Of a stretch of 64,000 nucleotides of DNA, positions 1-56,943 are shown piece by piece. Position 1 is the first letter of the stretch; the number at the start of each line of letters is the position of its first letter. The DNA comes from Streptomyces sp. ISL-94. Its GTDB lineage: Bacteria; Actinomycetota; Actinomycetes; Streptomycetales; Streptomycetaceae. Below the pieces are notes generated by a model. That model was not told where the DNA came from. It did no database searches and saw only the letters and a list, made by a program, of their open reading frames with translations. The stretch covers positions 62,001 to 126,000 of the forward strand of contig NZ_JAGGOZ010000023.1 in NCBI RefSeq assembly GCF_018614075.1, given 5' to 3'. The translations under genes and the position numbers were made by a program.

Positions 1-3000
1 TGTTGATCATTGACCAGTTCGAAGAGCTCCTGACCGAGCCCGGCCAGCATGACCGTCTGGCCGCCGCGGAGGAGATCGCCACTGCGGTCGACTCGTCGGC
101 TGAGCTCAGCGTGATCCTGGTCATGCGAGATGACTTCTACCCCCAGTTGGCCGCCCTGACTCCCCAGCTGCTGGAAACTGCCATGCCCGGCCTCCTCAAC
201 GTGCCGGCCACCCTGAGCCAGCAGGACCTGCACGACATCATCACCCTGCCCGCCCAGGACGTGGGACTGCACTTTCAACCAGGGCTGCCGGAGCAGATCG
301 TCACCGACGTCCTGGTCCCCAGCCCCGAGGCAGCCGCAGGGCGCCAGGCATCGGTCACCATGCTGCCCTTGCTGGAACTGACACTCAGCCAGTTATGGGC
401 TAGACGCCGCGACGGGTACCTCACCCATGACGCGTACCGCCGCATCGGTGCGGTCAGCGGGAGCCTTACAAACTGGTGCGACACCGCCCTCAATGAGCTG
501 GGCCTCGAGCAACGGCCCATCGCACGGGAAATCCTGACCTCCCTAGTGCATCCCGCTGACCCCGCCCGTAACGTACCCGCCGTACGGGCGCAGGTCCCTC
601 TCCACGAACTGCACGACATGGCCGCCGATCCCGATGACGCGAGCAGCGGCAAAACCGTCAACGACGTCCTCGCCGCCCTTACGCACCACCGCATCATCAC
701 CACCCAAACACTGCACGCCCCGGAACGCCCCGACGCCCCTATTGGCCAACCGGTGGCCGAGCTGATCCATGACGCCCTCATCCGTGACTGGGGCACACTG
801 CGCGAGTGGGTCAGCCAAGATCGCCGATTCCAAGGATGGCTGAACCGCACCCGCGATCGGTACGCCCGCTGGGCCGCAACATCCGACCCGGGAGACCTGC
901 TTGGTGGTACAGCACTTGCAGAAGGCCTCGAATGGTCACGCAAGCGCCGCCTGCCAGGCGACCTCGCAGCCTTCCTCACTGTCAGCAAGCAGCGCCAGCA
1001 GGCGGTCATCCGGCGCAGCAGGCGCATCAACGTCATCCTCGCTACCGTGCTGGCTCTTGCACTCGTCGCCGCAGCGGGAGCGTTGTGGCAATGGCGGACA
1101 GCTGAAGCCGAACGACAAGCAGGTTTGTCGCGGCAACTCGCTGCGGAATCAAACACGCTCATCGACAAAAGCCCTGATCTGGCGTCGTTGCTGGCCATCT
1201 ATGCGTACCGCGCGAGCCATACTCCCGAAGCCGCTGCGAGTCTGCAGGACGCCGCAGCCCTCCCGCTGCACCGGCGTCTGGTCGGCCACAAAGGTGAGGT
1301 GTACTCGGTGGCGTTCAGCCCCGACAGACACACCCTCGCCACCGCCAGCACCGACCACACAGTACGGCTGTGGGATGTGGCTGCAGGGAAGACCCGCACC
1401 GTCCTCACTGGACACAAGGGTGCTGTGTGGTCGGTGGCGTTCAGCCCTGACGGGCGCACCCTCGCCACCGGCAGCACCGACCACACGGTGCGGCTATGGG
1501 ACATGATGACGGGCAAGACCCGCAGCATCCTCACTGGTCACGCAAATTGGGTGAGCTGGGCCACCTTCAGCCCGGACGGGCGCACCCTCGCCACCGCCAG
1601 CAAGGACCGCACGGCCCGGTTGTGGGACGTGGCCACTGGCAAGATCCGCACCATCATCACCGGCCACGCCGACTGGGTGTACTCGGTGGCGTTCAGCCCT
1701 GACGGGCGCACCCTCGCCACCGCCAGCAAGGACCGCACGGCCCGGTTGTGGGACGTGACCAACGGCAAGATGCGTACCATACTCTCTGCCCACACGGATG
1801 CTGTTTGGGCCGTAAAGTTCAGCCCGGACGGACGCACCCTCGCCACCAGCAGCTCTGATGGGACAGCCCGATTGTGGGACGTGGCCACTGGAAAGGCCCG
1901 CAAAACGCTCGTAGGCCACACTGATCAGGCGTGGGCGGTCGCGTTCAGCCCGGACGGGCGCACCCTTGCCACAGGCAGTGCCGACCAAACCGCCCGGTTG
2001 TGGGATGTGGCCACCGGCAACGCCCGAGCCAGCTTTGCCGGCCACACGGGCGCGGTAGAGGCGGTGGCGTTCAGTCGGGACGGCCGTACCCTCGCCACCG
2101 CCAGCGATGACCGCACCGCCCGGTTGTGGGATGTGGCCACCGGCAACGCCCGAGCCAGCTTTGCCGGCCACACGGGCGCGGTAGAGGCGGTGGTATTCAG
2201 CCCGGACGGGCGCACCCTCGCCAGCGGCAGCGATGACCGCACCGCCCGATTGTGGGATCCGAAGACGGGCAAGACTCGATTCGTCCTCACCGGCCACACG
2301 GACGCGGTTTGGGCCGTGAGATTTACCCCGGACGGACACACTCTCGCCACCGCCAGCTCTGACAAGACGGTGCGGTTGTGGGACGTGGCCACAGGGAAGC
2401 CTCGATCCACGCTCACAGGCCACAAAGCTGCAGTGACCTCGGTGGCGTTCAGTCCCGACGGACGCACCCTCGCCACCTGCGGTAATGACGAGACGGTACG
2501 GCTGTGGGACCTCTCCACCGGTCACATCCGCACCACACTTGTCGTCAGCCATGGGGCGGGCTTCTCGGCGAGTTCCGTGGCGTTCAGCCCGGACGGGCGC
2601 ATCCTCGCCATCGGCAGCTCTGACAACACGGTGCAATTGAGGGACGTGGCCACCGAGAAGCCTCGATCCACGCTCGCAGGCCACGCGGACGCAGTGACCT
2701 CGTTGGCGTTTAGCCCCGACGGACACACGCTCGCCACTGGCAGCAATGACAAGACCGCACGGCTGTGGGACGTGGCCACAGGGAAGCCTCGATCCACGCT
2801 CACAGGCCACGCGGACGCAGTGACCTCGGTGGCGTTCGGTCCGGACGGACACACGCTCGCCACTGGCAGCAAGGACAAGACCGCACGGCTGTGGGACGTG
2901 GCCACCGGCAGGGCTCTCGCCACCTTCGCTGGCCATGCAGACTGGGTATGGTCTGTCGCCTTTAGCCCCGACAAGCGCACCCTTGCCACTGGCAGTTCCG

Positions 3001-3152
3001 ACCAGACCGCAAGGCTGTGGGACTCGGTCCTACCTGAGCCCGATGCCGCAATCCGCATCATCTGTCGAAACGTAAACCGAGATCTCAGCGCGGACGAACG
3101 AACGGCCTTCCTGCCGGGACAATCGGCTGGCCGAGCATGTCCGTCAGGCTGA
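1..3152 (+). CDS. nSTAND NTPase with 14 WD40 repeats (5' truncated by window edge)
   Basis: The frame is open at the left edge, so the N-terminus, including any Walker A motif and effector or HTH domain, is missing. The visible part opens with the Walker B motif IIDQFEEL (first residues) and a typical nSTAND1 NTPase/winged-helix region. One hydrophobic segment lies at about residues 341-362 of the visible part. From about residue 426 there are fourteen WD40 repeats of roughly 42 residues (GH...FSPDG.TLAT.S.D.TARLWD), enough for two seven-bladed propellers. Proteins of this class are large STAND switches: the propeller senses a ligand and NTP-driven oligomerisation activates an N-terminal effector. 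Many are regulatory or anti-invader proteins. The effector here cannot be seen, so the function is open. The gene sits in the accessory block left of a tRNA scar. Confidence 0.9.
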   Translation, partial: LIIDQFEELLTEPGQHDRLAAAEEIATAVDSSAELSVILVMRDDFYPQLAALTPQLLETAMPGLLNVPATLSQQDLHDIITLPAQDVGLHFQPGLPEQIVTDVLVPSPEAAAGRQASVTMLPLLELTLSQLWARRRDGYLTHDAYRRIGAVSGSLTNWCDTALNELGLEQRPIAREILTSLVHPADPARNVPAVRAQVPLHELHDMAADPDDASSGKTVNDVLAALTHHRIITTQTLHAPERPDAPIGQPVAELIHDALIRDWGTLREWVSQDRRFQGWLNRTRDRYARWAATSDPGDLLGGTALAEGLEWSRKRRLPGDLAAFLTVSKQRQQAVIRRSRRINVILATVLALALVAAAGALWQWRTAEAERQAGLSRQLAAESNTLIDKSPDLASLLAIYAYRASHTPEAAASLQDAAALPLHRRLVGHKGEVYSVAFSPDRHTLATASTDHTVRLWDVAAGKTRTVLTGHKGAVWSVAFSPDGRTLATGSTDHTVRLWDMMTGKTRSILTGHANWVSWATFSPDGRTLATASKDRTARLWDVATGKIRTIITGHADWVYSVAFSPDGRTLATASKDRTARLWDVTNGKMRTILSAHTDAVWAVKFSPDGRTLATSSSDGTARLWDVATGKARKTLVGHTDQAWAVAFSPDGRTLATGSADQTARLWDVATGNARASFAGHTGAVEAVAFSRDGRTLATASDDRTARLWDVATGNARASFAGHTGAVEAVVFSPDGRTLASGSDDRTARLWDPKTGKTRFVLTGHTDAVWAVRFTPDGHTLATASSDKTVRLWDVATGKPRSTLTGHKAAVTSVAFSPDGRTLATCGNDETVRLWDLSTGHIRTTLVVSHGAGFSASSVAFSPDGRILAIGSSDNTVQLRDVATEKPRSTLAGHADAVTSLAFSPDGHTLATGSNDKTARLWDVATGKPRSTLTGHADAVTSVAFGPDGHTLATGSKDKTARLWDVATGRALATFAGHADWVWSVAFSPDKRTLATGSSDQTARLWDSVLPEPDAAIRIICRNVNRDLSADERTAFLPGQSAGRACPSG
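1991..2193 (+). repeat. Recently duplicated WD40 blade (126-bp period)
   Basis: The stretches 1991-2067 and 2117-2193 read the same over their whole length, offset by 126 bp, which is exactly one 42-residue WD40 blade. The encoded segment around NARASFAGHTGAVEAV appears twice in succession. The other blades share motifs but differ far more in codons, so this pair points to a recent unequal crossover or gene-conversion event within the propeller array. Confidence 0.85.
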
Positions 3153-13309: not shown

Positions 13310-14191
13310 TCACGGGAGCGGGAGGGCGATCTTGACGGCGTAGGCGGCGACGAGCCCGTAGCCGAGGCGGAAGGTCCACACGCGGGCGGTGGCGGGGATC
13401 CGGCTCCCCGCGAGTGCGGCGAGGGCGACGAGGGTCTGCTGCCAGAGGAGCGAGGCGGCGCCGACCCCGACGAGGAAGGCGGTTCCGGCTGCGCCTGTGT
13501 GGAGGGTTGTGCCCTGGGCCGTGGTGAGGGCGGCGAAGTAGAGGGCGGTGGTGGGGTTCAGCGCGGTGAGCCCGACGTACCGGCCGAACGCCCTGCCCGT
13601 TCCCGATCCGGGACTCCGTCCCGGTCCAGGCGCCTCAATCGCCGGCGGGGCTGGGTGATGGTCCCGTGCCTGGAGTGCTGGCGCGGCTGGGTGGGGGCTG
13701 GGTGCCTCGGACGAGGGTGGGGCCGGGTGGGCGGGGTGTGAGTCGGGGCGGTGAGCCGGGTGGGCCGGGGCCGCGGGGCTCCGCCCCGGTCCCCGCGCCT
13801 CAATCGCCGGCGGGGCTGAAACGTGGTCCCGCGCCTCAATCGCCGGCGGGGCCGAAACGTGGTCCCGTGCCTCAGTCGCCGGCGGGGCTGGAAGGGGGGA
13901 GGGGTGCGGCTTGGTGAGGCCGCGGGCGGCGATGGACAGGAGGATCAGGGCCGAGGCCAGGCGGACCCAGGCCTCGATCGGGGAGACGTGGGAGGCCACC
14001 CAGGGGCCGAGGGCGGTGGCGACGGCGGCGTAGCCGAGGTCGACCGCCGCGATGCCGGCGGCCGCGGCCGCGGCCACCCGGCGGCTGCGCATCGCCTCCT
14101 GGATCAGCAGCACGCTCATCGCGCCCATCGGCACGGCCACCCCCAGGCCCGCCGCGGCGCCGGCGAAGGCCGGTGTCATCAGTTCGCTCAT
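13310..14191 (-). CDS. LysE-family exporter with a repeat-derived insert
   Basis: The protein has 293 residues against about 200 for the family. Residues 1-92 are LysE-like: the N-terminal TM, PMGAMSVLLIQEAMR, and two further TM segments. Residues about 201-293 resume with FGRYVGLTALNPTTALYF, the LysE NP motif, and the last TM helices. Between them lies a Pro/Ala-rich segment of about 107 residues with four copies of A-P-P-A-I/T-E-A, which is a translated dispersed DNA repeat (see 13632-13890). The frame is intact through the insert, so the protein may still fold with an enlarged cytoplasmic loop. Predicted role is export of a basic or other amino acid. It is divergent from an Lrp regulator, the classical lysE/lysG-like layout. 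ATG start 14191. Confidence 0.8.
   Translation of the reverse strand: MSELMTPAFAGAAAGLGVAVPMGAMSVLLIQEAMRSRRVAAAAAAGIAAVDLGYAAVATALGPWVASHVSPIEAWVRLASALILLSIAARGLTKPHPSPLPAPPATEARDHVSAPPAIEARDHVSAPPAIEARGPGRSPAAPAHPAHRPDSHPAHPAPPSSEAPSPHPAAPALQARDHHPAPPAIEAPGPGRSPGSGTGRAFGRYVGLTALNPTTALYFAALTTAQGTTLHTGAAGTAFLVGVGAASLLWQQTLVALAALAGSRIPATARVWTFRLGYGLVAAYAVKIALPLP
13632..13890. repeat. Four copies of a dispersed Streptomyces repeat inside lysE
   Basis: Copies at 13632-13653, 13797-13818, 13833-13854 and 13869-13890 share the 22-nt core GCCTCAATCGCCGGCGGGGCTG, with one or two substitutions in the last two. The second is extended upstream by a GGGCTCCGCCCC hairpin (about 13775-13790). This element is, from memory, a very common intergenic repeat in streptomycetes. 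A related copy in opposite orientation occurs at 55148-55193. Here it is translated in frame as part of the exporter. Confidence 0.85.
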
Positions 14192-53080: not shown

Positions 53081-54256
53081 ATGCGTCACTTCGGGCACAT
53101 ATCGCCCACCGTCCGTAAGGACCTCTTCCACCAGGAACCGGCGGAATTCACCGGTGCCTCGCCGGCCCGCACCCTCGCCGCGGCGCTGGGTGCCACGCTC
53201 TACAGCCCGGCCACCCGCCCCCAGCTCGCCGGGGACATCCGCAAGCAGGCCGGCCGCGGGGTCGTCTCCATGGTCCTCTGCCTGGAGGACTCGATCAGCG
53301 ACGGCGACGTCGCCGGAGCCGAGGAGAACCTCGTCCGGCAGTTCGCCGAGCTCGACGCCGGGGGACCGGACGCCGCGGAACTCCCGCTGCTGTTCATCCG
53401 CGTGCGCACGCCCGAGCAGATACCGGACCTGGTGCGCCGCCTCGGCGGCTCGGTGCGGCGGTTGGCCGGATTCGTACTACCCAAGTTCAACGAGAGCAGC
53501 GGCAGCGCCTTCCTCGACGCCGTGGCCCAGGCCGAGACCGCCGCCGGGCTGGCCCGGCTGTATGCCATGCCCGTGCTGGAGACCCCCGACCTCCTCCACC
53601 TCGAAACGCGCGCCGGGACCCTCGCCGGAATCTCCCGGACGGTCAACAGCCACCGCGAGCGGGTGCTGGCCCTGCGGCTCGGCGTGACCGATTTCTGCTC
53701 CGCCTACGGACTGCGCCGCACCCCCGACATGACCGCCTACGACGTCAAGATCGTGGCCGGCGTGATCGCGGACGTAGTCAACGTCCTGAGCCGCGCCGAC
53801 GGCACCGGCTTCACGGTCACCGGTCCGGTGTGGGAGTACTTCCGCAGCCAGCAGCGCCTCTTCAAGCCCCAGCTGCGCCGGAGCCCCTTCCTCGCGGAGG
53901 GTGTGGAGGAACTGCGCACGGCGCTCATCGAGCACGACCTGGACGGGCTGCTGCGCGAGATCGAACTCGACCGGGCCAACGGGCTCCTGGGCAAGACCTG
54001 CATCCACCCCGCGCACGTGACGCCCGTGCACGCGCTGTCGGTGGTCTCCCACGAGGAGTTCTGCGACGCCCAGGACATCCTGCGCCCGGAGCGCGGCGGC
54101 GGCGGAGTGATGCGTTCCGCCTACACGAACAAGATGAACGAGGTGAAGCCCCACCGGGCCTGGGCGGAGCGCACCATGCTGCGCGCCGAGGTCTTCGGTG
54201 TGGCGAGGGAGGAGGTCGGCTTCGTCGACCTGCTCACGGCCGGGCTCCAGGTGTGA
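53081..54256 (+). CDS. HpcH/HpaI aldolase/citrate lyase-family enzyme of the Ter biosynthetic module
   Basis: This 391-residue TIM-barrel protein has VVSMVLCLEDSISDGDV (metal-binding acidic strand), LPLLFIRVRTPEQI, FVLPKFNES and LRLGVTDFCSAYGLRR, with C-terminal KTCIHPAHVTPVHAL, a typical citrate lyase-type end. In Ter-linked operons this family is thought to make a C-C bond-derived precursor of a nucleoside-like metabolite. Its stop overlaps the next start (GTGA), so the downstream polyprotein is translationally coupled. GGGGAAG lies before the ATG. Confidence 0.85.
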   Translation: MRHFGHISPTVRKDLFHQEPAEFTGASPARTLAAALGATLYSPATRPQLAGDIRKQAGRGVVSMVLCLEDSISDGDVAGAEENLVRQFAELDAGGPDAAELPLLFIRVRTPEQIPDLVRRLGGSVRRLAGFVLPKFNESSGSAFLDAVAQAETAAGLARLYAMPVLETPDLLHLETRAGTLAGISRTVNSHRERVLALRLGVTDFCSAYGLRRTPDMTAYDVKIVAGVIADVVNVLSRADGTGFTVTGPVWEYFRSQQRLFKPQLRRSPFLAEGVEELRTALIEHDLDGLLREIELDRANGLLGKTCIHPAHVTPVHALSVVSHEEFCDAQDILRPERGGGGVMRSAYTNKMNEVKPHRAWAERTMLRAEVFGVAREEVGFVDLLTAGLQV

Positions 54257-56943
54257 GCGGGCCGTTGACGAACCCGAGGACGACGACGAGGACGAGGGAA
54301 GGCAAGACGATCGACACGGTGTGGTCGGGAACATGGGTCGCGGACCGGCTGGGGGTCCGGCTGCAGGACGCCGAGGAGGCAGCGGGGGGTCCGCGGCTGA
54401 CGGAACTCCTCGGACTGGCGCTGCGCCGCAACCCCAAGCGGGCGCACCTGCTGGTCTCGCAGGTGCTGGGCAAGCACGTCCCGCAGTCCCCGGCGGCCGT
54501 GTACGCGGCGGGCTACGGGCTCGGCGAGCGGGTCCGCGAGCTGCTCGGCCCGGAGGGGGCCGCTTCGGCGGTCGTCCTCGGCTACGCCGAGACCGCCACC
54601 GGGCTGGGCCACTGCGTGGCCGACGGCCTGGGCCCGGCCCCCTACCTGCACTCCACCCGCCGCCCGGTCGCCGGGCTCGCCCCGGCGGGCGGCTTCGAGG
54701 AGGCCCACTCGCACGCCACCTCGCACCTGCTGCTGCCAGAGGACCCCGAACTCCTGGCGGGCACCGGCCCGCTGGTCCTGGTCGACGACGAGTTCTCCAC
54801 CGGCAACACGGTCCTGAACACCATCCGCGACCTGCACGCCCGCCACCCCCGCGCGCACTACGTGGTCGTCGCCCTCGTCGACATGCGCTCCCCGTCCGAC
54901 CGCGCCCGCCTCACGGCCTTCGCCGCCGAACTGGGAGCCCGCGTCGACCTGATCGCCCTGGCCTCGGGCACGGTGTCCCTCCCGGAGGGAGTCCTGGCGA
55001 AGGGCCAGGCGCTGGTGGAGGAGTACGAAGCGCTCGCCCACACGCCTCAGCCCGAGTCCGAGTCCGAGTCCGAGCCCCAGCCCCAGCCCCAGCCCGCGGC
55101 TGACGGTGCCGGGTCTGCCCTGGAGGTCCCGGCCGGCGCCATCCAGCACCGCCGGCCGTTGAGGCGCGGGGTCTCGGGCGGAGCCCCGGCGGGCGGCCCG
55201 CAGCCGCATGGCGAGCGCGTCCCCCTCGACTGGCCCGCGGGCCTCCCGGACGGCGGCCGCCACGGCTTCACCCCCGCGCACCGGGAAGCGCTGAACGCGG
55301 CGCTCCCCGCCCTGACCGGCCGGCTCGCCGACGCGCTGGGCGAACGGCCAGGACGGGTCCTCGTACTCGGTAACGAAGAGCTGATGTACACCCCGCTGCG
55401 CCTCGCGAAGGCGCTGGAGGAGTCGGGCGCCGCCCGGGAGGTCCGCTTCTCCACCACCACCCGCTCACCCGTCCTCGCCGTGGACGACCCCGGCTACGCC
55501 ATCCGCACCCGCCTCGTCTTCCCCGCCCACGACGCCCCGGCGGACGGCCCCGGAGACCGCTACGCGTACAACGTCGCGGGCGCCGGCTTCGACGCCGTCG
55601 TCGCCGTCGTCGACTCGGCCGGGGACACCCCCGAACTCCGCACCGGGCTGCTCGCGGCCCTCGCCCCGCACACCGGCCGCGTCCTGCTGGTCTCCGTACC
55701 GTCCTACGTACCGGCCCCCGCACCGACCCCCGTACCGACCTCCGTACCGATGCCCGTACCGATGCCCGTACCGACGCCCGTACCCGACCGGCAGGAGCCG
55801 ATCATGCCCGAGCCCCTGCGCGGCCCCGCGTTCTCCTCCTACGCCCCGGGGGACGTCGGCTGGCTGCTCCAGGACTTCTCCGACGTCGAGCTGGAGGCCC
55901 CGACCGAGGAGCGCGAGGAGGCCATCCAGGCCGGCGGCGCGCACTACGCCGAGTCCCTGCCCGTCGAGTACCAGCCGTCGCCCCAGTACCAGGAGCTCTA
56001 CCAGAGCGCCCTGGCCGCCTCGGCCGCCCGCATGGCCCGCGCGGTCGGCACCGTCACCGAGACCGTCCTCGCCGAGCGCTCCCCCTCCCCGGTCCTGGTC
56101 TCCCTCGCCCGCGCCGGCACTCCCGTCGGCGTGCTGATGCGCCGCTGGGCGCACGCCCGGCACGGCCTGGACCTGCCGCACTACGCCGTCTCCATCGTGC
56201 GCGGCCGCGGCATCGACGCCAACGCCCTGCGCTGGCTGGCCGCCCACCACGACCCGGCCGACGTCGTCTTCGTCGACGGCTGGACCGGCAAGGGCGCCAT
56301 CACGCGCGAGCTGAAGGCCGCCCTCGCGCAGTTCGAGGGCTTCAACCCGGAGATCGTCGTCCTCGCCGACCCCGGCTCGTGCGTGGAGACGTACGGCACC
56401 CGCGAGGACTTCCTCATCCCCTCCGCCTGCCTCAACTCCACCGTCTCCGGTCTCGTCTCCCGTACGGTGCTGAGGTCCGACCTGGTCGGACCCGCAGACT
56501 TCCACGGCGCGAAGTTCTACCGCGAGCTCGCCGGGGCCGATGTCTCCGTGGCCTTCGTCGACACCGTCGCCGCCCACTTCGACGAGGTGGCCGACGCCGT
56601 CGGCGAGGAGGTCAAGGAGCTGCTCGCGGCCGACCGCACGCCGACCTGGGAGGGCTGGGCGGCGGTCGAGCGGATCAGTGAGGAGTACGGCATCCACGAC
56701 GTGAACCTCGTCAAGCCCGGGGTCGGCGAGACCACCCGGGTGCTGCTGCGCCGGGTCCCGTGGAAGATCCTCGCGCAGCGCGGCGCGGGGGCCGATCTGG
56801 ACCACGTACGGCTGCTCGCCGAGCAGCGCGGGGTCCCGGTGGAGGAGGTCGACGGACTGCCGTACACGTGCGTGGGACTCATCCACCCCCGATTCACACG
56901 CGGCGCCACCGGCGCCGACGGAAAGGCTGTGGCCTCGAAGTGA
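54253..56943 (+). CDS. Fused PRTase-TRSP and StiP/PELOTA-type protein of the Ter module
   Basis: This 896-residue single frame contains two proteins that I recall as usually separate. Residues about 20-260 are an orotate-PRTase-like domain with the PRPP motif LVLVDDEFSTGNT (about 177). A Glu/Ser/Pro-Gln linker and a repeat-derived segment (about 265-315) follow. The TRSP domain spans about 325-485, and a VP-rich linker runs to about 517. Residues 518-896 are a full-length StiP-type PRTase/PELOTA protein (SSYAPGDVGWLLQDFSDVELEAPTEEREEA, LVSLARAGTPVGVLMRRW, FVDGWTGKGAI, EDFLIPSACLNSTVSGLVSR). An in-frame ATG at 55804 has AGGAG seven bases upstream, so StiP may also be made alone. Predicted role is ribosylation steps of a Ter-linked nucleoside-like product. 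GTG start overlaps the lyase stop. Confidence 0.82.
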   Translation: MSGPLTNPRTTTRTREGKTIDTVWSGTWVADRLGVRLQDAEEAAGGPRLTELLGLALRRNPKRAHLLVSQVLGKHVPQSPAAVYAAGYGLGERVRELLGPEGAASAVVLGYAETATGLGHCVADGLGPAPYLHSTRRPVAGLAPAGGFEEAHSHATSHLLLPEDPELLAGTGPLVLVDDEFSTGNTVLNTIRDLHARHPRAHYVVVALVDMRSPSDRARLTAFAAELGARVDLIALASGTVSLPEGVLAKGQALVEEYEALAHTPQPESESESEPQPQPQPAADGAGSALEVPAGAIQHRRPLRRGVSGGAPAGGPQPHGERVPLDWPAGLPDGGRHGFTPAHREALNAALPALTGRLADALGERPGRVLVLGNEELMYTPLRLAKALEESGAAREVRFSTTTRSPVLAVDDPGYAIRTRLVFPAHDAPADGPGDRYAYNVAGAGFDAVVAVVDSAGDTPELRTGLLAALAPHTGRVLLVSVPSYVPAPAPTPVPTSVPMPVPMPVPTPVPDRQEPIMPEPLRGPAFSSYAPGDVGWLLQDFSDVELEAPTEEREEAIQAGGAHYAESLPVEYQPSPQYQELYQSALAASAARMARAVGTVTETVLAERSPSPVLVSLARAGTPVGVLMRRWAHARHGLDLPHYAVSIVRGRGIDANALRWLAAHHDPADVVFVDGWTGKGAITRELKAALAQFEGFNPEIVVLADPGSCVETYGTREDFLIPSACLNSTVSGLVSRTVLRSDLVGPADFHGAKFYRELAGADVSVAFVDTVAAHFDEVADAVGEEVKELLAADRTPTWEGWAAVERISEEYGIHDVNLVKPGVGETTRVLLRRVPWKILAQRGAGADLDHVRLLAEQRGVPVEEVDGLPYTCVGLIHPRFTRGATGADGKAVASK
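55148..55193. repeat. Dispersed Streptomyces repeat inside the PRTase-StiP gene
   Basis: Contains GCCGGCCGTTGAGGCGCGGG and a GCGGAGCCCCGGCGGGC end: the reverse-orientation form of the element seen four times in lysE (13632-13890). Here it encodes the linker around HRRPLRRGVSGGAPAGG between the PRTase and TRSP domains. Confidence 0.75.
55713..55790 (+). repeat. 12-nt tandem repeat encoding a VP-rich linker
   Basis: About six imperfect units of a CCCGTACCGACC/GATG motif encode the Pro-Val-Pro-Thr/Met linker between TRSP and StiP. The array ends 14 bp before the internal ribosome binding site and ATG 55804. Confidence 0.85.

Follow-up and report, generated by a model that had tools for sequence, protein, structure and literature searches.

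The window analyzed here is a stretch of 64,000 nucleotides from Streptomyces sp. ISL-94 (contig NZ_JAGGOZ010000023.1, positions 62,001 to 126,000). It contains a single open frame of 896 codons, which encodes the domains PRTase_2–TRSP–StiP–PELOTA_1 in this order (Table 1). All four domains were matched in Pfam far above the cut-offs: PRTase_2 (PF15609) at 230 bits (cut-off 28.8), TRSP (PF12500) at 133.6 bits (cut-off 25), StiP (PF11202) at 358.7 bits (cut-off 28.7), and PELOTA_1 (PF15608) at 117.8 bits (cut-off 25). A sequence-only reading of this DNA had described PRTase-TRSP and StiP as joined in one 896-residue frame, and the open frame and the domain matches confirm this; PELOTA_1 was not named there. 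The same reading had pointed to an internal AGGAG and ATG (55804) that would start a complete StiP. Both are present, and the frame that begins at this ATG includes PELOTA_1. This fused gene and its inner start are the subject of the present study.

A total of 118 Streptomyces loci were compared, including that of the window; some are from the same species. Eighty were collected by StiP similarity and are the best 80 of the scan. Another 37 came from a class-wide sample, in which 37 of the 39 other StiP-bearing Streptomyces genomes and 52 of the 53 non-Streptomyces ones were fetched. Three loci (L023, L044, and L062), in which the contig ends cut before TRSP, were excluded from the fusion count and kept in the start count. 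In all 115 Streptomyces loci with a readable TRSP, the frame is open from TRSP into StiP. Eight loci missed by tblastn, five from Streptomyces and three from other genera, were called fused by reading. Two class-sample Streptomyces genomes whose loci were not fetched (G269 and G285) have open frames of length 869 and 871. Comparison of the junction in relatives, proposed as a check by the sequence-only reading, thus gives no stop codon in any readable Streptomyces locus and a TAA in the split locus L211.

The linker before StiP occurs in 40 different lengths among 104 loci; its length has changed at least 74 times on the tree, and it is always in frame. None of the 100 distinct linkers has an in-frame stop, compared with 13 and 11 for the other two frames of the same linkers. 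That such a hypervariable linker never leaves the frame or gains a stop is a strong indication that cells produce and retain the fused protein. The fusion recurs in many separate assemblies, which rules out an artefact of assembly or a frameshift. On this comparison, the fusion is old within Streptomyces.

An in-frame start codon is found in the linker, just before StiP, in 112 of the 118 Streptomyces loci. The opposite pattern, in which most relatives would be fused without an internal start, had been named in the earlier reading as evidence against its own proposal and is not found in the genus. The start codon among the 110 loci counted is ATG in 102 and GTG in 7, and it is lost in 1 (6 changes on the tree). 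The 16S RNA of the window's genome ends in GGATCACCTCCTTTCT, and 16 loci have GAAAGGAG, its 8-base complement. The predicted duplex with the 16S tail reaches −5 kcal/mol or better at 105 of the 112 inner starts and is weaker at 7. In this scoring, a GTG further upstream was picked for L007; its ATG was used in the later analyses. The two Streptomyces samples partly overlap, and there are 96 distinct 24-mers among the 112. Over these 96 sequences, the mean duplex energy is −7.12, compared with −5.31 for synonymous recodings (the lowest mean of 1000 was −5.90). A duplex of −7 kcal/mol or better is predicted for 61 of the 96 upstream sequences and for only 4 of 317 other in-frame ATGs in the same genes.

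The choice of codons before the inner start is unusual. The rare codon AGG makes up 42 of the 102 arginine codons in the eight codons before the start, compared with 196 of 7264 elsewhere. Likewise, GAA accounts for 89 of 122 glutamate codons before the start and 882 of 6110 elsewhere. Shine-Dalgarno-like cores are found in each of the three codon phases, and 85 different peptides are encoded by the seven codons that precede the start in the 96 sequences. Given these varied phases and peptides, selection seems to act on the nucleic acid rather than on the peptide.

The predicted folding of the mRNA was compared in the same way. Segments of 45 nucleotides at the inner start have a mean energy of −9.2 kcal/mol, versus −16.6 kcal/mol at other in-frame ATGs. 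Around the start, between −30 and +30, the mRNA of the genus is on average less folded than its synonymous recodings (mean z 0.9 to 1.3); this unfolding is absent at 60 nucleotides and beyond (z −0.31 to 0.19). As a natural control, the 25 fusions that lack an inner start have a z of −0.60 at the homologous position. In the fused loci of other genera that have the start (12 distinct segments), z is 1.27; here the signal extends from about −30 to +15 and has vanished by +30. When the loci are divided into five Shine-Dalgarno subgroups, four are unfolded at the start (z 1.08 to 1.78).

The StiP tree has 198 rows, of which 119 are fused with the start, 54 are split, and 25 are fused without the start. 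These three states need 11 changes. Identical proteins were entered once, L112 and the loci without a readable TRSP (L130, L138, L139, L143, and L209) were omitted, and non-Streptomyces rows of doubtful fused type were relabelled by hand according to whether or not the linker holds an ATG. Other genera of the family contributed 40 loci, of which 18 are split, 12 are fused with the start, 9 are fused without it, and 1 is unreadable. Outside the family there are 52 loci: 36 split, 10 fused without the start, 1 (L146) fused with it, 4 unreadable, and additionally L112, which is split by reading and was too short to be placed on the tree. Closest to the fused clade are the split loci L206, L211, L203, and L204 (support 90). 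The fused group has a support of 91, and the fused group together with these four has a support of 85, all values being those printed on the pruned, rerooted FastTree tree.

The split locus L211 reads GAACGGCAGG TCCGATAACCC ATGCTG, with a TAA between the Shine-Dalgarno region and the ATG in the same frame. The fused locus L029 reads GAACGGCAGG AACCTCCC ATGCTG and matches L211 in the Shine-Dalgarno region and the ATG, without the TAA. Sister genera, in which the genes are split, have this Shine-Dalgarno region and ATG too. Because these elements are shared and the TAA lies between them in L211, it appears that the inner start in Streptomyces is the original StiP start. On the tree, the fusions found outside Streptomyces look independent, and most of them have no inner start. 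L146 is fused in frame and keeps GAGAGGACAGGCCGCACCC-ATG before StiP, in a group that is otherwise split. It is apparently an independent, recent fusion with a retained start.

We consider it probable that a stop codon was lost in an ancestor, and that the resulting gene, with an inner start under selection, gives both the fusion and free StiP–PELOTA. Observed in the genus are one stop-free frame, conserved start signals, and a codon choice and mRNA openness that fit initiation. The stop of PRTase_2–TRSP would have been lost in an ancestor of the sampled Streptomyces, in frame with the next gene, StiP–PELOTA, whose Shine-Dalgarno sequence and start codon would have been left in place. Ribosomes from the first start would then meet no stop and make the four-domain fusion on a disordered, freely varying linker. 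Ribosomes at the internal Shine-Dalgarno sequence would start at ATG 55804 and make free StiP–PELOTA, as suggested by the conserved start, the codons chosen before it, and the open mRNA in the genus. We infer that cells make free StiP–PELOTA and benefit from its amount relative to the fusion, and that both products probably serve a Ter-associated biosynthetic pathway, in which free StiP–PELOTA would adjust its own dose relative to PRTase_2–TRSP. The sequence-only reading had suggested a fusion and a free StiP from one gene, and the conserved start, its Shine-Dalgarno sequence, and the open mRNA in the genus indicate that this is probably so. With less confidence, we favor the view that nearly the whole genus holds a stable, half-finished fusion, with the ribosome binding site of the second gene maintained by selection inside the fused frame. 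Each transcript would give a tethered four-domain enzyme and free StiP–PELOTA, and some lineages would later have dropped the inner start.

Several observations weigh against this proposal. A duplex of −5 kcal/mol or better is reached by 90 of the 96 distinct sequences, but also by 105 of the 317 control ATGs; therefore, a moderate Shine-Dalgarno score alone means little. Individually, just 38 of the 96 sequences have p <0.05 against the synonymous null. In the subgroup of the window, the commonest glutamine and glutamate codons themselves spell a CAGGAG Shine-Dalgarno sequence. Codon choice in this subgroup is therefore no proof of selection, and the synonymous test is not decisive there. The folding signal of the same subgroup (19 loci, 18 distinct) is reversed at the start (z −0.91), with weak unfolding just downstream (z 0.56 at +15 and 0.78 at +30). 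For the window alone, z is −1.13 at the inner start, and the segment 55775–55825 has a predicted fold of −18.2 kcal/mol. The folding in this subgroup is the main result that speaks against a strong start in this particular species. Six Streptomyces loci have no inner start, and their linkers are 3–21 residues long. They comprise L159 and five early-branching loci, for which the tree would be compatible either with loss or with never having had an inner start when fused. Some start-less fusions elsewhere, such as L120 and L189, have long linkers. The sequences in all comparisons are related and not independent, and the tree is a quick one based on StiP only.

A plain fusion, in which the gene yields the long protein alone and the internal Shine-Dalgarno sequence and ATG are left over from the former gene start, would account for the six start-less Streptomyces loci, the fused loci elsewhere without an internal start, and the predicted folding of the start in the window's subgroup. 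A relic should, however, decay in a linker with so many length changes, yet 112 of the 118 loci keep the start. In addition, where the start codon has changed, it has mostly become GTG; the codon AGG is enriched; and unfolding of the mRNA tracks the presence of the start. We regard this explanation as unlikely. Much less probable is a pause site, at which the internal Shine-Dalgarno sequence would give the first half time to fold ahead of synthesis of the second, the ATG being incidental. Its position in a predicted disordered linker between two folded halves would suit such a role, but a pause needs no correctly spaced start codon, no exchange of ATG for GTG, and no unfolded mRNA flanking the ATG. 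A role of the peptide, for instance as a site where the translated fusion is cleaved to release StiP, is slightly more doubtful still. The surrounding residues (ER..M, RQE..M) are partly conserved, but this is opposed by the diversity of the seven-residue stretches and by a nucleotide element that occurs in different codon phases and uses the rare AGG. These three explanations are weaker than a selected inner start because none predicts a start codon, its exchange for GTG, and unfolding only where the start is present.

The sequence-only reading had further proposed that a tandem repeat erased the stop codon in the lineage of the window. The loss of a stop holds up, given the split sister genera, but the repeat as its cause does not and is hardly credible: the 12-nucleotide array indeed ends (55789) 14 bases before the ATG, as had been noted, but in L002, L012, and the other Streptomyces loci that could be read, the fusion runs through other linker sequences. 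The StiP proteins of L002 and L012 are 95.5% and 96.8% identical to that of the window. The VP tandem array of the window was not found between TRSP and the inner ATG in either of these loci, and both are fused. Linker 2 has 12 residues in L002, compared with 36 in the window, and L012 has a different repetitive stretch, located after its inner ATG. Since these close relatives are fused without the array, the array is recent and not the cause of the fusion.

Linker 1, between PRTase_2 and TRSP, was seen in all five relatives in which it was read. In the window it contains, in frame, an exact copy of the repeat TTGAGGCGCGGGGTCNNGGGCGGAGCCCC, of which 81 + 95 copies are present in the window's genome at up to two mismatches (0 for the reversed control). 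The dispersed Streptomyces repeat that the sequence-only reading had placed in another linker than the tandem array is thus real. Besides the window, L003 and L085 were the only loci, among those scanned for it, with a core of this repeat upstream of StiP, in L085 in opposite orientation; among six loci checked, the longer repeat pattern was found only in the window. The tandem array and the dispersed repeat are probably late, neutral fillings of the linkers. Elsewhere in the window (13792–13890) there are 2.8 copies of a 36-nucleotide tandem unit, CCCGCGCCTCAATCGCCGGCGGGGCTGAAACGTGGT, which resembles the dispersed repeat on the opposite strand.

In-frame internal initiation is also a feature of the IF2 and CheA genes. 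For Escherichia coli, PMC6941012 describes ClpB95 and ClpB80 as products of such initiation, and it gives a potential internal AGGGAA-ATG site for Leptospira clpB. Two products from one frame by internal initiation are thus already known from ClpB. As in genes of the ClpB type, there is here one frame with an internal Shine-Dalgarno sequence and ATG, and the long and short products would share their C-terminus. Unlike in those genes, the short product here appears to come from a once independent gene, the stop codon at its boundary having been lost, and both products are deduced rather than seen. PMC3711429, on frame transitions, states that one locus can give fused and unfused products, with internal initiation among the mechanisms; in contrast to the transitions described there, no frameshift is needed here, as the halves share a frame. 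What appears to be new is a genus-wide case that arose from stop loss between two operon genes with the start of the second gene kept. No report naming the PRTase_2–TRSP–StiP fusion or its internal start was among the literature matches listed, a search in which subscription papers mostly fell outside.

Domain fusions are usually read as parts that always act together, and annotation gives one protein per frame. What our comparison indicates is the spread of a fusion through a genus while the free second protein was kept, and it suggests that records of this family miss a second product. Split genes, fusions with an inner start, and fusions without one form a natural series for studying how and why genes fuse. 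The case may also offer a handle on the little-understood Ter-associated pathway, in which the dose of StiP–PELOTA relative to PRTase_2–TRSP may matter. A nucleoside-like metabolite is the predicted product of the Ter biosynthetic genes, according to work cited in PMC8115787.

Table 1. Features of the fused gene and its surroundings, in positions of the window.
Feature	Position	Strand	Basis and remarks
C-C_Bond_Lyase (PF15617) gene	53081–54256	+	Pfam, E 1.1e-120; stop overlaps GTG of fused gene
Fused frame PRTase_2–TRSP–StiP–PELOTA_1, 896 codons	54253–56943	+	Open reading frame (ORF) and Pfam; exact N-terminus uncertain
PRTase_2 domain	54406–54969	+	Pfam, residues 52–239
Linker 1, predicted disordered	55066–55194	+	Residues 272–314, predicted local distance difference test (pLDDT) <50
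Dispersed genomic repeat copy in linker 1	55159–55187	+	Genome-wide copy count against reversed control
TRSP domain	55249–55662	+	Pfam, residues 333–470
12-nucleotide tandem array in linker 2, VP-rich	55694–55789	+	7.9 copies; absent from close relatives L002 and L012
Internal Shine-Dalgarno sequence AGGAG	55793–55797	+	Duplex of −7.3 kcal/mol with the 3′ end of the 16S RNA of the same genome
Putative free StiP–PELOTA frame, ATG 55804–55806, 379 codons	55804–56943	+	Conserved start; apparently homologous to the separate StiP start in sister genera
StiP domain	55834–56568	+	Pfam, residues 528–772
PELOTA_1 domain	56647–56886	+	Pfam, residues 799–878

The C-C_Bond_Lyase gene lies directly upstream of the fused frame, and two ORFs with TerD domains lie near it. 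The GTG of the fused gene (54253) overlaps the lyase stop codon, but it is uncertain whether this is the true start of the long protein: the N-terminus (54253–54330) differs between the relatives aligned, and residues 1–20 have a pLDDT <50. On a Tsukamurella plasmid (L213) and a Pseudomonas plasmid (L214), annotated lyase, phosphoribosyltransferase, and StiP genes also stand beside TerD genes, a comparison that covered these annotated genes. The phosphoribosyltransferase and StiP, which are fused here, are separate genes in both. They overlap by 4 nucleotides in Tsukamurella, and a further gene lies between them in Pseudomonas.

The AlphaFold2 model of the fused protein, built from 54 alignment rows, has a mean pLDDT of 84.3 and a predicted TM-score (pTM) of 0.58, and its domains are confident. 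Values <50 at residues 272–314 and 497–515 fall within the two linkers. Fold matches to the whole model in the Protein Data Bank (PDB), which were not assigned to parts of it, are mainly adenine phosphoribosyltransferases and their relatives.

In the window's subgroup, the Shine-Dalgarno sequence is flanked by CGGC and GCCG (CGGC-AGGA-GCCG; 55789–55803 in the window). With these flanks, the site could lie in the loop of a small hairpin; the fold of minimum energy that was predicted differs from this hairpin. A tandem array with a period of 126 nucleotides (13.7 copies, 72% matches) at 1284–3023 of the window is probably a repeat-protein gene.

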